DNA of 64,000 nucleotides, taken from NCBI GenBank assembly GCA_905250025.1, contig CAJNOJ010000013.1, positions 372,001 through 436,000 of the forward strand, given 5' to 3'. Source of the stretch: Adineta ricciae (Eukaryota > Rotifera > Eurotatoria > Adinetida > Adinetidae). A model generated the notes under the pieces. It saw only the letters and a program-made list of their open reading frames with translations, made no database searches and was not told the origin of the DNA. The translations under genes were made by a program, and so were the position numbers. This document shows positions 52,792 to 61,017 of this stretch, one piece after another. Positions within the stretch are counted from its first letter, which is position 1; every line of letters begins with the position of its first letter.

Positions 52792-54103
52792 ATGGCATTC
52801 AGAACAACTGCCAATTTTAATAATGCTCCTAAACCATGGGTAAGAGTTTTCCGCTTCCTCAAGTTGAAGTGACATTGACAGAAGATGATGTTATAGATAA
52901 CGATTCCAACTGAACTCATTGGCTCCATACCACGAATCACAGCATTATTAGAAGGTCAACAAGCATACAAAGCTGGTCGTATAAGTAAAAATCAACTGGA
53001 CGTTCTACAAGATAAAGCAGTTCGACAAACAATTGCTGAATTAGAAAAAACCGGGCCAGGACAGATAACTGACGGTGAACAAGCTAAACCATCTTTTCTC
53101 ATCTATCCGTACGTATTATCTCGTCATTGAAAATGAACATTGACAAAACAGCCTGAGATTCATTTCTAGAATCGCTCCATTATATCCTTCCGAATATACT
53201 TTCGATGATATGATTGATTGTTTTACAATCATATTCTCTGATGGACACCAACGTACATTACCACGATTGACAAAAGCTCCATTTCGATATGGAAAATACG
53301 CTGTAGATTATGTCCGTAAAGCTCAACAGTATACATGTCGACCAATCAAGCAAGCTGTTATCTCTCCCTCAGCTCTGTCGAATGTTTATCCTCGCCCAAC
53401 GATACCAGGCTATACCCGTGAACAGTTTCTCGACGATTTAGTCAACGAAGTGGAGAAAGATATTCGCCTATGTTTAGAAGCTGGTGTGGATAAAGTCCAA
53501 ATGGATTTTACTGAAGCTCGTTTGTCTCTTAAAATAGATCCATCGGGAAAACTATTAAGAAATTTCGTGCAATTGAACAATCGTGTTTTAGACCGATTTG
53601 CCGATAATCCTGAGTACTACAACAAAATTGGTATTCATATTTGTCCAGGTAAATCAAATAACTTTCAGATATAAATCGATCCGTTTGTTTCGTGCATAGG
53701 AGGCGATCGAGATTCTCATCATTCATTAGATATTGATTACACATTGGTTTTACCGTTGATTTTCGATTTACATGTCAAGCATTTTTATGTATCCTTAGCA
53801 TCCGAACGTGATCGAAAGAAAGTTTTGACAATGATTCGAGAATATATTCAACCAGATCATCGTATTTTCATCGGCGTTATCGATCCGATAGATGCGCGAG
53901 TTGAGAACGCTGAACAAGTATGCGATCGAATACTGGAAGCTGCTCGATTCATAAACATTGAGCAATTAGGAACGACGGATGATTGTGGCTATGCACCGTT
54001 TTCGGATGATGAATCAACAACACGAGCCAAATGCTACGATAAAATACGAGCTCGGGTTGATGGAACTCGGATGGCTGAACGAATATTAAATACACGGAAA
54101 TAA
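52792..54103 (+). CDS. Cobalamin-independent methionine synthase-like protein (MetE C-terminal domain)
   Basis: Four exons join in frame: 52792-52839, 52897-53108, 53170-53648, 53700-54103, giving 380 residues. It starts ITIPTELIGSIPRITALLEG, then KAVRQTIAELEKTGPGQITD, AGVDKVQMDFTEARLSLK, IGIHICPGGDRDSHHS, FIGVIDPIDARVENAEQV and LGTTDDCGYAPFSDD. The His and Cys of HIC and the Cys of DDCG correspond to zinc ligands that activate homocysteine in MetE. The length matches short single-barrel MetE-like proteins of bacteria and archaea, not the 750-residue plant/fungal enzyme. Animals normally use cobalamin-dependent MTR, so foreign origin is plausible. Whether it makes methionine or another methylthio product is open. 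AATAAA is at 54136. Start: first Met after the acceptor-like site at 52758. Confidence 0.88.
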
Positions 54104-56690
54104 TTGTCTCCGCTCTATTTGTAAAAAGTTTCCTCAATAAACCTAGAACACAATTAAATATCATTCATCAATCCGTAGATAAACTCGAAAGTTTTTTTTT
54201 CATAAAGCTTACTACGGCTTAAATCAAACGAAACATTTTCCAGGGCGTGGATGATAGAAAACAATCTACGTCTTTTGTGATAATGAGCAGAATGGCAACT
54301 TTGACCTGACGCAAACAATCCTCACGGGAATCCTGTTTACTACGATTTTTGACATAACTGATGTGCAAAGATATTAGCAGTAATTTCGAAATTGTCTCTT
54401 CTTTTGAATATATCTCCCAAGCAGAAGATATCCAGCACCACTTTCCTGTTCGATACTTTTCTTTTAGTGTGTTCGACTGAAAGCATTCGCAAATGTACCT
54501 GATTCAATATTGCTAATTAGTGTAAATATTTCTTTGTAAGGATGACAAATATCATATTTCCTTTACTTTTTACGCACGAGCTTCTGTAGTACAACTAAGA
54601 AACTTGTTCTACACTTATTTTATATCGATCACCTTCGTTGTCAAACATCTGTATTGGCATTCTAATATGCTTGTCAAAAAGCAATAGAAACTCACTAACA
54701 TTTTCTCGTTTCCTCTCTCTGAAAAACAGAGATTTGATATGAGCATTCTCTAGAGGCATTAACAATAGACTTTTCATTAAGATTTCAAAAAGAAACGATG
54801 CGACATCGAAGTTTGACTACAGGTACAATCAGACAACTTATTGCTACCAATCAGATAAGTGAATAAAATAACATATCTAAATCAAACTTCTTCTATAATA
54901 CTCATTTAATCAAGGATAATCTTTGTTAATGAAGCTCATTTCTTTACTCATGTTTTTGCAATCTACAGGTAACGGTCTGATTTATTTTTACTTTGCCTGA
55001 ACGTTTTACCCACAATAAAGTACTTCGACTACGATTTACGCTTGTTTTTCTGTCAAAAATAAATCCTTATTAGAAACGTCAATACGAATATGATTCAAAC
55101 AGTTTACGTCATTAAAGAATTAAAAGATTTGAATGATGCTATTAAGCCCACGATAAAAGCATAGAATCAACGCAACTAAGTTCGCCAATAACTACAGTTA
55201 CGGACCATTATTGTCTTCATACAATCAGTGATGTTAAACTGTACAAAATACAAAGAATGAAAGTATTAGTTGAGAATCTTCGACACTTTTTTCTCGTAAA
55301 TCTAACATTCCCCCCACATGCGGTACTTATTAGACAATCCAAGTTCACTGATTTTCAAGAAATACTAATTTTAATTGAATGAAGCAGCTTAGGTGAAGGT
55401 CTTGAACGTAAATCTGTTCTTCTGTTGCCGAGATGACATTTTGTCATTTGAAAGAAGTTGATTAATTGTCATTAGTTTAATGTCGTATTCGTTGGCATTT
55501 CTTCTTTCACTGTAATCGAATGATTTAATTAAAATAGAAGAAGAAAAAAAGAAAAAGACGACTTTCCATTTCGTATGTCAGGCTCATATCCGTCATTAAT
55601 CATCGATTGATTTTGCTCGTTCACTCGGAAATATCAACATTCGTTAATAAGGAGAAACTTCCGGTATGTTAAACAGACGTTGCGTGATCTTTATACAATG
55701 ATTTTTAAATGTCAATAGATTTCATTGATATTTCAAAAAATAACTATAGATATTAATATGAACCTAGGCCGTTGTATTATGCGTACATATGCCTCATAGA
55801 GTATCTTGTCTGATTGTTTACAGTTTGTATGGAAATAGAAATTCGATTTGAATAATCAATACAATTATAGTCACAATAGATTTCACACACAATTTCCTTG
55901 CGAACAATGATTATTGATAGAAAAGAAGGAAAATCTCTACGGAATAAGCAATGAACTTCTTTTTTTTTTGTTGTTTTCATTTCTTTGTCTTCGGGAAAAT
56001 ATTCGTTGCAATCGAACAAATCGTTTTTTTTTTTTTATGACATAATCTTCATGGTTGATGTCAAGCACTAGAATGCATCTTTTTATGATCTCAGTTCAAA
56101 CTGAAAATGACTTTACGTAAGACGATTATCTTCAAAGGCGGATGAGTGAAATTTCGAACGAGCACAAGCAACACATTGTGATATTTACCTGAAAAAAATT
56201 TTTAATAAATGAGTATAATGGAACATCTTTCTCCTTCTCATTTCTTCTAATGACTGCACGTTGTATACACGAGAGGGAAAAGATGCTTCTAGATAGTAAG
56301 TAAATATAATTTATTATAAGAACGTCAAGTACGATTTAATTTTAAATGAAAGATGCGTCGACGTCACATCCGAATCGTGGTAACTTTTGAATTACAGTAG
56401 CCAGCTGTTGTAGACCTTTTTGACTAATTTTTCTTTCAGTCGTCATGATTTTGAAAGTACGGAGGAGGTTTTAAGCGTACAGCTTCCTCAAAATGATCTA
56501 CGAGTTTCTATTAGAATATTCTACATAAAATCAACTTTCTCTCAAGATGAGCTCATCATTTTTTATTACATTCACTGACGTGTAAAAAGACTGTTCCTTA
56601 GTCGTCTTCTACAAATATTAAGTTAATCTTTCATCAAGCGAGAACGCTCTCAAACTTTTGACTACTACACTTTTAGATAAAGTTTATACT
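54104..56690. other. Intergenic, about 2.6 kb, no gene seen
   Basis: AT-rich, with A and T homopolymer runs near 55536-55550, 55957-55970 and 56025-56036. The MetE-like polyadenylation signal is at 54136. An acceptor-like CACTTTTAG ends at 56676, 14 bases before the neuropeptide ATG. Confidence 0.5.
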
Positions 56691-57114
56691 ATGAGTTGCA
56701 AAACGACCATTGCCTATCTCCTGTTGATGATTGTTTTTTTTAACTTCGCTCAAGCAATCTTATCCAATGTGCCACGTGAGTTGACGATCATTTCGTCTCG
56801 GAACATTCACGTTTTTTCTTTCCGCGTTTTTAGCACCACCAACACGACCAGACTACTTCAAAACCAAAGAAGAATTGAGACGTTATTTACAAAAAGTATG
56901 TAACAGACAGCTGTCGATCTCTGCGTACATTGTTTTATGTTTTTCGTAGCTCCATGAATATCATCTTATTCTCGGACGATGGCGAAGTCGACGCGGCGAA
57001 AACGAGTATCCACAACCATTCGATGAGAGGATCGACACGAAGAATTATGATTTCATAACGAATGAATCACTTCAACGATTACGATTTCAACCTGAAAATG
57101 CATTTCCACATTGA
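56691..57114 (+). CDS. Neuropeptide F/Y-like precursor
   Basis: Three small exons join in frame: 56691-56775, 56834-56895, 56950-57114, giving 103 residues. A signal peptide (MSCKTTIAYLLLMIVFF, then NFAQA) precedes ILSNVPPPTRPDYFKTKEE, continuing LRRYLQKLHEYHLILGRW. The Pro-rich start, RPxxF, ELRRYLxxLxxY and the following GR fit the neuropeptide F/Y pattern of molluscs, flatworms and insects. After GRW comes RSRRG, so the usual RPRFGKR amidation end is not present; cleavage at the Arg-Arg would leave a peptide ending in RWRS. A 46-residue C-terminal flanking peptide follows, as in other NPF precursors. The intron inside the peptide (between QK and LHEY) matches the conserved intron position style of NPY-family genes. 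AATAAA is at 57218. The coding region is too fragmented to show as a long frame. Confidence 0.75.
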
Positions 57115-58741
57115 AATTATCAGTTGATATGCCTCGAAGTACATCAACGTACTCTAATGTATGCCACAAATTTTTATTTCAAATGTTTAATAGATTCTAT
57201 TTATTCGTTCGATCATCAATAAATAAACTAATCCGATGCATGTTGTTGAATCTATTCGACTATTGCCACTTTATTAGACATGTGAGGAACATGTTCAGAC
57301 ATTACTCTGCTTTTCAATGATGATACGAATCGAAATGCGATTCAAAGATAAGGGTATACTGATTGAATCAAGTCCACCGTCAGGATATGTAATTCTTATA
57401 AGATAGTCTAGTCTTCGAGATTATCGCAATCAATCAAACGGATAAATAGAGTCAATGTCTTCATCTTGTGAGATTCAACCATAAGTTCCTTCGACTAAAG
57501 TCTAATATCGTGAATGCGGAAGTTACTTACAGACATCAATACATTTATAACCATGTTTGTCTTAGATTGCTTTAATATTCGTTTATATTTAGTTCAGACA
57601 ATGAGTTCTGGTAATTTACGCATATAATGATATACAACCTAACATGATAACCTGAATCTTTTTTCTTTTCAAATATATTTTTTGTTGAGCTCATCAGAAT
57701 GAAAATATTAAATACGCAAATTCTGTTTAATTAGTGTTTGTGGTATTTACACTGTTGGAGGATACAGATCTTCCAGATAAATGCAACCAACGAAGAAGCA
57801 CAATGTGATATGTATTCAAATGTTCCATTTCTTTTTTGCGAATCAACTGTTTAGTTTGATTTCGAATCGAATATACAACGTATTTACGAATTGAAATTCA
57901 AACCATGAGTTTATTTGAATATGAGATAATCGAAGGAAAATAAAAATGTTTTCTATACTTCTTTGTTGTTTATTGAAATGTCCTCATTCATTTTTATCAA
58001 ATATTTCGGTTAGGAAACTTCCCTTTGCGTCAACAAACTTCTGCCATAATCATTTTGAATCAATTAACAAGCAGATGTCACACTAGATGTCAAGTTCGTT
58101 CAACGAAATACATAAACACACACTTAGAATCTCTAGACAGGTTTTCAAGAAACGATCTTTGAGAATATATGCATAATGTCATGAGAGAAGGTCTGACCTT
58201 TCGTTATTCAGCTGTTAGGAAAAGCAAAATTAACATAGATCAAACCTTCTACTCATATCCGCACTGTGTCAACTATTGAATACAATAAAGCTAGAGGACG
58301 ATAAAAGTGTTGTCTGGGTAACCTCGTTCTTCCTACTGCGGCACTGCTGCAGATGGGATAAATAATAATTAACTTCAGACTAGCATATTCACATAGTTCT
58401 TCATTTAGCTGTTCCAAGTCGAGTTAGGTAACATCGACAAATTTTTGTCTTTCATAGAATTATCATTGATTATATGTTGTGACTGACAAATGACGCCTAT
58501 CGTTCTCTAATTACGAACTAAAAAATTGAAAGCGAGTATCCATAATTTATGATTCCTGACAAAAACGGCTACATGTTTATCTAAAGGAAATAAACTCACT
58601 CTGGCAGCGATATATTTGCCGAAATTATAGCTTATAATTAATCAGATATCTGTTCGGAAACTTTCTCGATTTGTTGCTCAATGTTTTTCTTTTTGTTAGA
58701 AAAATATTATTCCCTTTAAGTCGTGTTTATTGTTTTTATAG

Positions 58742-58852
58742 GAACGTCACCCTATCACACAACAGACTCTTGATGAATTTCGTCTTCAAGATCGAATATC
58801 ATTTGGATTAATGACGATATTGCATATGTATAGAAAGAAAATATTTGCTTAA
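58742..58852 (+). CDS. Possible terminal coding exon without identified partners
   Basis: TGTTTTTATAG directly precedes a 36-codon open stretch ending in TAA: ERHPITQQTLDEFRLQD then RISFGLMTILHMYRKKIFA. Its composition is protein-like (no AT-driven bias), but no upstream exon was found within 1.5 kb and no family is recognised. Confidence 0.25.
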   Translation, partial: ERHPITQQTLDEFRLQDRISFGLMTILHMYRKKIFA

Positions 58853-59938
58853 GTACATAAAGAAAGAACTAGACATTCATACAATTGAATAATTCTATGA
58901 AAATCCAAAGCATAGATCATCGCCAGTTTGCATGTGTTTGCTTACTTCTGTTTTATTCATTTGATGTTTGACACAATCAATATGGGTTTGAAATGAAACC
59001 GATTGGTGAACTGTGAAGGAAAATTTGTATGGTAATGTCCAAGTATGAGTTGGTTAGATAACTACTCCTCATAATCGTTTCGTTCTGAAATAATTTGTCA
59101 TATTGACATATCTTCTCAATATCTGTTATTGTCATTGTGCATTGAAGCATATATCGACGAACTAATCATGATTTCGAGGACAGAACAGATGCAATTGCCA
59201 TTCAATTCGAAATAATTTGACAGTGATGTATTGTCTTTGCGTTCGTTTTGTTCTTTATCATCATTGCATCTAAATTGACAAATGATTCAATCATTCTCTC
59301 CTTATTTTCCCAAAACGAACATCGGTTGGACAATGATTGACAAACAAGTTTCTCCTCGTTGCTCTTTATCAAATATGAATTGAAACTTAATGAAGACAAT
59401 AGCAGTCATTTAGTAGTTAGTCTCGAATTAATCTTCAAGACAATAGATCTGATGTCTGCACGCAATGTCCAGGAGACGCACACACTTCATCTTTTGATTA
59501 TGTTGAACAAATTTACTCCGTTATTATCTTCACCTCTCACAATCGATATGACTCAGTGACCGATTGATTAGCATTGGACGTCAATCTTTTATCCTTGTCT
59601 GTGGCATTGTTATGTCAATAATGTCCAATAATCATCGCAAGATTGTCTCTATCCATGTTGCATGTCTCACGAGATTTAGTCAATGATAATGATAATGATG
59701 ATTGTTTTGTTTTACAAATTGAATAAAGATTTCAGGCCAATGAGAAAAAAAGTGATGAATGATGAAGACATGAAACGCGTCAGGTCTCCGAAGATATAGA
59801 GAGAAGATCGATCGCAAAATAGTTTCTTTGGGCTTTCTTTTTCAATTCTCAATTGAACCATGACAATGTCTGGAAATAACGTTGAAAAAGATTACGTCAT
59901 CATCATCATCATCAAGATCGATAGTACTTGAGAGATAG

Positions 59939-60011
59939 GAAGAAAGGAGTGAAGGAGAAAAAAAAGAACATGAAGAAGAAAGAGAAAAAGAAAGAAAAGA
60001 AGAAGAAGAAC
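59939..60011. repeat. Purine-rich GA/GAAA tract
   Basis: Irregular GAAGAA and GAAAAAGAAA units, about 73 bases, almost purely purine on the plus strand. Confidence 0.6.
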
Positions 60012-60796
60012 AGTAATGTTGTCTTATTCTCATGTTCGCACTCCTTTTCTAATTGAACATGCATACAACTCTCTCCATAACTATCAACAAACAAGTTAAA
60101 ATGAAGAAAAAAGGAGAAGATTGACATATCCGACAATTCTGATATCCTATCTACATCATCATCTTTCTCTTCTGCAGTAATAACAACATCAACCATCCTC
60201 GGGGTGTATACGCACAGTGAGTATAAATCGAATATCTCGATCTGTCCACATAGATATGAATAAGATACTACTTCTCGATATCATTTGCTTTGATTTCATC
60301 ATTGTCTACTCTTCTCTTTCTTGTTCTATTATTACATGTGAGTGCGTGTAACAGCCGTGTTCAGCTGGTGTCATTTTCTTATTGTTTGTTGAATTGAACA
60401 GACTGACCGAACATGACAATAGATGACATCGAAGAGTGAATCTTAAAGATAAGAAAGTTTTCCTTCGAGAGCAAATACATCAGATTTGTTTTATTGATTA
60501 AATCGATTTCTGATGGCAACATAGATCGTAATCAGATGGAAATTGGCTCGATTAATTGAACTTTTCAACTAAATCGTCATTATCATCGTCATCGAGCGAC
60601 AATAGCAAGCAATGGAACTAATGAAATTTTCTTAGCTTTTTCTTTTGACATAGCTCAGAGAATAGAGCATGTTCAACGGAAATCATTGATTCGTAGAAGA
60701 TTTTCATTCGTTTTTTTCTTGTCTCGCGCGCAGATCATATTAAGTGATGATATCGAGTATGTTATTTTTTTAACTTGTTAGTCATCCAAAATAGAT

Positions 60797-61017
60797 ATTG
60801 TAGTCGTGACTGAACTTGAAAACGATTAGTGACTAGTCAGAAGAACCATTCATGAATACAATATGAGAGAAAATAGAACGAAACATAAGAAGTTCAATTG
60901 CTTTTGTTTTGACTACTGAATCAATTGAATGAGCGTGTGTCGAGGTAATCTTCTCGTTAAAACGATCGATTGCATCATCATCGTCGTCGTGTGCTTCGAA
61001 CGTAGTCATTATTAGTG
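60797..61017 (+). repeat. Direct duplication of 221 bases, copy 1 (assembly join)
   Basis: Starts ATTGTAGTCGTGACTG and ends ATTAGTG. It is repeated without visible change at 61019-61239, with a single N at 61018 between the copies. Confidence 0.9.

Follow-up and report, generated by a model that had tools for sequence, protein, structure and literature searches.

A neuropeptide F-family gene of Adineta ricciae with an altered C-terminus lacking the amide-donor glycine

Results

Structure of the gene and its predicted precursor

The window, i.e. the whole stretch of DNA analysed in this study, comprises 64,000 nucleotides (positions 372001-436000 of contig C13) of a 130-Mb genome consisting of 1033 contigs. 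A neuropeptide F (NPF)-like gene composed of three exons was confirmed on its forward strand at positions 56691-57114. The exons (85, 62 and 165 bp) keep the reading frame intact across both joins, and the two introns (58 and 54 bp) are of the GT-AG type, in phases 1 and 0. The features of the locus are as follows (other loci are named after their contigs):

56691..56775, + strand: exon 1, with the start codon, the signal peptide and the first residues of the peptide
56776..56833, + strand: intron 1, 58 bp, GT-AG, phase 1 (same phase in C1, C28, C16 and C392)
56834..56895, + strand: exon 2, encoding PPPPTRPDYFKTKEELRRYLQK, the PP-fold part (Pfam Hormone_3, residues 28-59)
56896..56949, + strand: intron 2, 54 bp, GT-AG, phase 0 (same phase in C1, C28, C16 and C392)
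56950..57114, + strand: exon 3, with the C-terminal half of the peptide, the cleavage site, the C-flanking peptide and the stop codon
56974..56994, + strand: GRWRSRR, the non-canonical end plus dibasic site, without the amide-donor Gly (GRWRVRR in C1)
56995..57111, + strand: C-flanking peptide of 39 residues, retaining a degenerate trace of an EF-hand-like loop (intact-looking in C28 and C1)
57218..57227, + strand: two AATAAA hexamers that overlap and resemble poly(A) signals, approximately 105 bp past the stop codon (direct reading of the sequence)

The predicted product has 103 residues (MSCKTTIAYLLLMIVFFNFAQA / ILSNVPPPPTRPDYFKTKEELRRYLQKLHEYHLILGRWRS / RR / GENEY...FPH), arranged as a signal peptide, a peptide placed directly after it, a basic cleavage site and a C-flanking peptide. 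The signal peptide, judged by eye, has a hydrophobic core and a predicted cut after AQA (residue 22). The mature peptide carries PPPPTRP..F..KEELRRYLQKLHEY, which is followed by the GRWRSRR end.

Elsewhere in the window (53144-54103, + strand), two neighbouring ORFs resemble cobalamin-independent methionine synthase, of which the second alone has a Pfam match (PF01717, 22.4 bits with a cutoff of 21); these may have been acquired horizontally. A scan for bacterial promoters and terminators, uninformative in an animal, gave 4 promoter-like sites (3.2 expected) and 0 terminators.

Relationship to the NPY/NPF family

The window protein matched the Pfam profile Hormone_3 (NPY/NPF) with 31 bits (E-value 2.7e-7), 2.3 bits above the cutoff of 28.7, and its peptide is identical to scallop NPF at 17 of 32 residues (scallop sequence from PMC5996578). 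When the gene was scored exon by exon, in the genome-wide Hormone_3 scan, the match was weak (E-value 0.065). A PDB sequence search with a profile of nine family peptides retrieved structures of PP, PYY and Moniezia NPF (best E-value 1.5e-4), while the whole window precursor alone gave nothing significant (best E-value 0.22, for an OmpA-family chain; Moniezia NPF, 1.3). The exon model, the Hormone_3 score and the scallop identity support the NPF/NPY plan proposed in the first-pass annotation. Judging by this score, this identity and an ohnologue on contig C1 with a like end (see below), the family resemblance exceeds chance.

The closest parallel in plan is the scallop/spiralian NPF (...NEYYSIVGRPRF-amide, PMC5996578), which is likewise a peptide of approximately 40 residues lying straight after the signal peptide. 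Both share the pattern PP.RP..F....LR.YL..L.EY.. I.GR.R, the basic cleavage site and the C-flanking peptide. In contrast to the spiralian RPRF-G-KR, the window and C1 genes end in RWR[S/V]-RR, without Phe or Gly, and thus no amide is predicted. The PP and PYY matches extend the likeness to the vertebrate NPY/PYY/PP peptides; these, unlike the window peptide, have an amidated RxRY end, which is required for Y1R signalling (PMC8844075).

An NPF hormone is recognised by R-x-R-F/Y at its C-terminus with Gly and one or more basic residues behind it, which yields an amide; the window gene does not have this end. On the sequence evidence, it belongs to the NPF family by descent and not by the amidated RxRF/Y end that defines the hormone. 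Two statements of the first-pass annotation hold in this respect: Gly is missing before the dibasic site of the window gene (GRWRSRRG), and amidation as in known NPFs is not predicted. The C1 copy ends in GRWRVRRH.

Four classes of NPF-type loci

Protein searches with three members and the Hormone_3 scan agreed on 11 NPF-type loci (the first 14 of the 18 matches listed in the scan correspond to these loci), which were grouped into four classes. These are: (a) C67, C31 and C214, ending in ARPR|FGKR, with a phase 2 intron in the Arg codon; (b) C28, C16 and C392, ending in GRPRFGR, with introns in phases 1 and 0; (c) the window gene and C1, ending in GRWR[S/V]RR, with introns in phases 1 and 0; and (d) C80, C163 and C110, ending in K[V/I]KLVRR, whose coding part has no introns and which arose by retrocopy or by intron loss. 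As read from their ends, classes a and b are amidatable and classes c and d are not; the two kinds coexist in one genome. Hormone_3 scores were 32.7 for C1, 51.6 for C28, and 25.3 and 25.4, i.e. below the cutoff, for class d. Two further weak Hormone_3 matches, C50:318305-318379 and C33:514364-514438, cover the same profile positions (E-values 0.135 and 0.294) and perhaps represent a fifth NPY-like pair.

Class b has the same exon plan and intron phases as the window gene, and the two have approximately 61% of their mature peptide in common. Unlike the window gene, classes a and b terminate in RPRF-G-R or RPRF-G-KR. In the NPY family, an intron typically splits the Arg codon that precedes the final Phe/Tyr; it is present in C67, C31 and C214 (phase 2, RPR|F) and has no counterpart in the window gene or in the canonical class b.

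C31/C214, C16/C392 and C80/C163 share 91-94% identity across most of their approximately 3-kb loci and look like allelic pairs. Over 38 codons, dS between alleles was 0.117 (C16/C392) and 0.127 (C80/C163); published Ks values between homologues are 0.14 for Adineta ricciae and 0.05 for A. vaga (PMC5916493).

A FastTree phylogeny built from nine of the 11 mature peptides (the near-duplicates C392 and C214 were omitted) joined classes c and d with a support of 0.857, class c itself receiving 0.792. Since the peptides are short and the d branch is long, a single loss of Gly for both classes is only weakly favoured.

Ohnologous copy on C1 and origin of the altered end

The C1 copy has the same exon plan and intron phases as the window gene. 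Synteny was examined by ORF matching between a C13 block (the window plus 20 kb) and a C1 block of 80 kb. This revealed 77 ORF matches, all 77 in the same orientation (identities of 29-92%), with a rank correlation of 0.996 across 61 best hits. The C13 block matched those of C28, C16 and C392 at the NPF gene only (3 of 80 rows), and C28 and C16/C392 are mutually collinear. From the collinear block, the window gene and C1 are identified as ohnologues; ohnology of C80/C110 and C67/C31 would follow from their divergence alone. The change of the class c end would have arisen prior to the split of the two copies. As tetraploidy is older than the bdelloid families (PMC5916493), this end should predate it.

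At the codon level, the class b end GRP RF G R and the class c end GRW R[S/V] R R align without gaps. Both class c copies have Arg (CGA) where class b has the amide-donor Gly (GGC or GGT), which turns a Gly-Arg amidation site into an Arg-Arg cleavage site. In addition, Phe (TTT or TTC) corresponds to Ser (AGT) or Val (GTT), and Pro to Trp.

Selection on class c

Identity between the window and C1 proteins is uneven: 17 of 19 in the last 19 residues of the mature part, 11/19 in the preceding 19, 9/26 in the signal region and 10/26 in the aligned C-flank. The last 19 residues are more conserved than the signal region (Fisher's test, p = 0.0003) and the C-flank (p = 0.0007); the comparison with the preceding 19, i.e. 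of the C-terminal with the N-terminal half, is non-significant (p = 0.062). Across the 38 codons of the mature part, pS was 0.50 and pN 0.18 (p = 0.0023), and across the last 19 codons 0.45 and 0.09 (p = 0.0059). The corresponding dN/dS values are 0.25 and approximately 0.14, while ohnologous comparisons gave 0.03 for class b and 0.04-0.06 for class d. Constraint on class c thus appears looser than on b and d, as its mature dN/dS lies above theirs. In a substitution-only neutral simulation (20,000 runs), the frame stayed open in 237 of 20,000 single lineages, and 17 of the 19 C-terminal residues were kept in none.

The last predicted residue differs between the ohnologues (Ser in the window, Val in C1), whereas it is invariably Phe in the amidatable NPFs, and therefore the exact class c end is perhaps not under strict selection.

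C-flanking peptide

An EF-hand-like, putatively calcium-binding loop was recognised in the C-flanks of C28 (DVNGDNSIAPDEF; 153492-153653, reverse strand) and C1 (DINHDHIITKSEF), where it looks intact; it is weaker in C392 and a remnant in the window copy. EF-hand_6 was matched with E-values of 6.2e-5 (C28) and 5e-4 (C1), each below the curated cutoff, and was not listed for the C392 or window proteins. A PDB search with a profile of five C-flanks gave a best E-value of 0.019, with mostly EF-hand chains among the 25 matches listed. A snail gene combining neuropeptides with an EF-hand region has been described (Bogdanov 1998). As a conserved function, an EF-hand C-flank was rejected for the window copy, in which the loop is broken.

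Discussion

Possible processing and action

The reading that we prefer, and regard as probable though far from certain, is that the window gene is an NPF paralogue under maintenance whose product, a secreted, non-amidated peptide of approximately 40 residues with a free-acid end, works through a changed receptor or has a modulatory role. The precursors of the window and C1 genes would enter the secretory pathway and be cut after Arg-Arg, within R-S-R-R in the window and R-V-R-R in C1; the furin motif accommodates both. A carboxypeptidase would then remove the two Arg residues, leaving a free carboxyl group on a peptide that ends in ...ILGRWRS (or ...ILGRWRV), as opposed to ...IIGRPRF-amide. 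Amidating-type domains are present in the genome, with 24 matches to the PF01082 copper monooxygenase (peptidyl-glycine) domain (best 147.6 bits), a family that also includes other enzymes.

Such a peptide would retain the two Arg residues gripped by NPY-family receptors and would lose the aromatic amide activating the Y1 receptor. In human Y1R, R33 and R35 of NPY are key contacts, non-amidated NPY does not signal, and acid-ended peptide ligands of receptors occupy basic pockets (PMC8844075). With both Arg residues kept and the aromatic amide lost, a changed receptor or the tuning of the response to amidated NPF appears most likely. The altered yet conserved NPF end suggests a differently ended signal and not a dying gene.

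The same features also fit a free-acid NPF that binds the NPF receptor by its two Arg residues without activating it (an antagonist or decoy): R33-x-R35 is retained, the activating aromatic amide is lost, and Y1R is not activated by non-amidated NPY (PMC8844075). However, class d is conserved (18 of 19 residues of the C-terminal half are identical between C80 and C110) despite having lost RxR. The other form of this explanation is that the precursor serves some purpose outside hormone signalling; a function of the C-flank is unlikely, because the C-flank and the signal peptide are the least conserved parts and the window copy has a broken EF-hand-like loop. In either form, the peptide would be kept for a role that dispenses with receptor activation, and this explanation is considered unlikely.

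Alternatively, the window gene could be a decaying NPF copy on its way to becoming a pseudogene, one of the two options (a divergent or a decaying ligand) left by the first-pass annotation. The loss of the end most characteristic of the family, the looser constraint in comparison with classes b and d, and the degenerate EF-hand-like loop of the window copy are consistent with this. On the other hand, the frames are open and the splice sites intact in both ohnologues, which share the altered end and 17 of 19 C-terminal residues; pS far exceeds pN, and this degree of C-terminal identity never arose in the neutral simulation. Simple decay is therefore disfavoured and judged improbable, and of the two options a divergent ligand under maintenance is favoured.

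Another explanation is based on the Pro-to-Trp change after Gly-Arg, which might open a new amidation site one step upstream: a cut at ILGR, in front of Trp, would yield a shorter peptide, ...EYHLIL-amide or ...EYHSIL-amide. Pro at P1' is expected to block cutting, and indeed the GR of class b precedes Pro (GRPRFGR) where both class c copies have Trp. Monobasic cleavage, however, requires position P4, P6 or P8 to be basic, and only a His, at P6, is available there. Moreover, the conservation of RWR[S/V]RR would have no reason, and we regard this explanation as highly improbable.

Finally, the end could be an artefact of sequencing or assembly, or a standard RPRFGKR end could be supplied by an exon that was overlooked. 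This is hardly conceivable even though a single assembly was used: the independent C1 copy, differing synonymously, has the same end (contradicting the error that the first-pass annotation had named as a possible refutation), and at 54001-61000 the strand of the gene contains neither an RxRF-Gly-basic motif nor a phase-2 acceptor that would match, the sole motif match being RFGK at 59317 on the opposite strand.

Significance

A broader and more tentative proposal, which is possible but rather doubtful, is that NPF was split into amidated and free-acid hormones in bdelloids before their genome duplication. Classes c and d would have lost Gly in a common ancestor and been kept as acid ligands with a co-evolved receptor, probably one with a basic pocket. 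NPY-family hormones are recognised by, and work through, their amidated RxRF/Y end. If the proposal is true, there would be a branch of this family in which amidation was switched off through one Gly-to-Arg step. The change of GR into RR in class c illustrates how amidation can be lost. Conserved amide-less paralogues beside amidated NPFs in one animal offer a natural experiment on whether an acid-ended NPF signals, blocks or uses another receptor. A comparable situation is known from Platynereis, where WI peptides accompany the MIPs/Wamides (PMC3890597): there, too, an amide-less paralogue occurs beside an amidated family in the same animal, although that peptide family is unrelated to NPF.

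Searches confined to open-access papers revealed no account of rotifer NPY-family paralogues that lack the amide, and no such case from the NPY family was seen. Gnathiferan neuropeptides are little sampled, and a 2021 survey gives only few proneuropeptides from three Rotaria species (PMC8557429); the NPFs of classes c and d may thus fill a gap.

As a separate observation, a search with the bdelloid spliced leader gave matches at 41 places, each with one mismatch (at the first base), and 0 for the reversed control. In line with the first-pass annotation, these matches, the short introns, the diverged collinear duplicate blocks and the near-identical third copies jointly point to a bdelloid rotifer. 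The spliced-leader sites are located on C2, C6, C8, C43, C77, C79, C99 and C146, many of them in head-to-head pairs approximately 150 bp apart.
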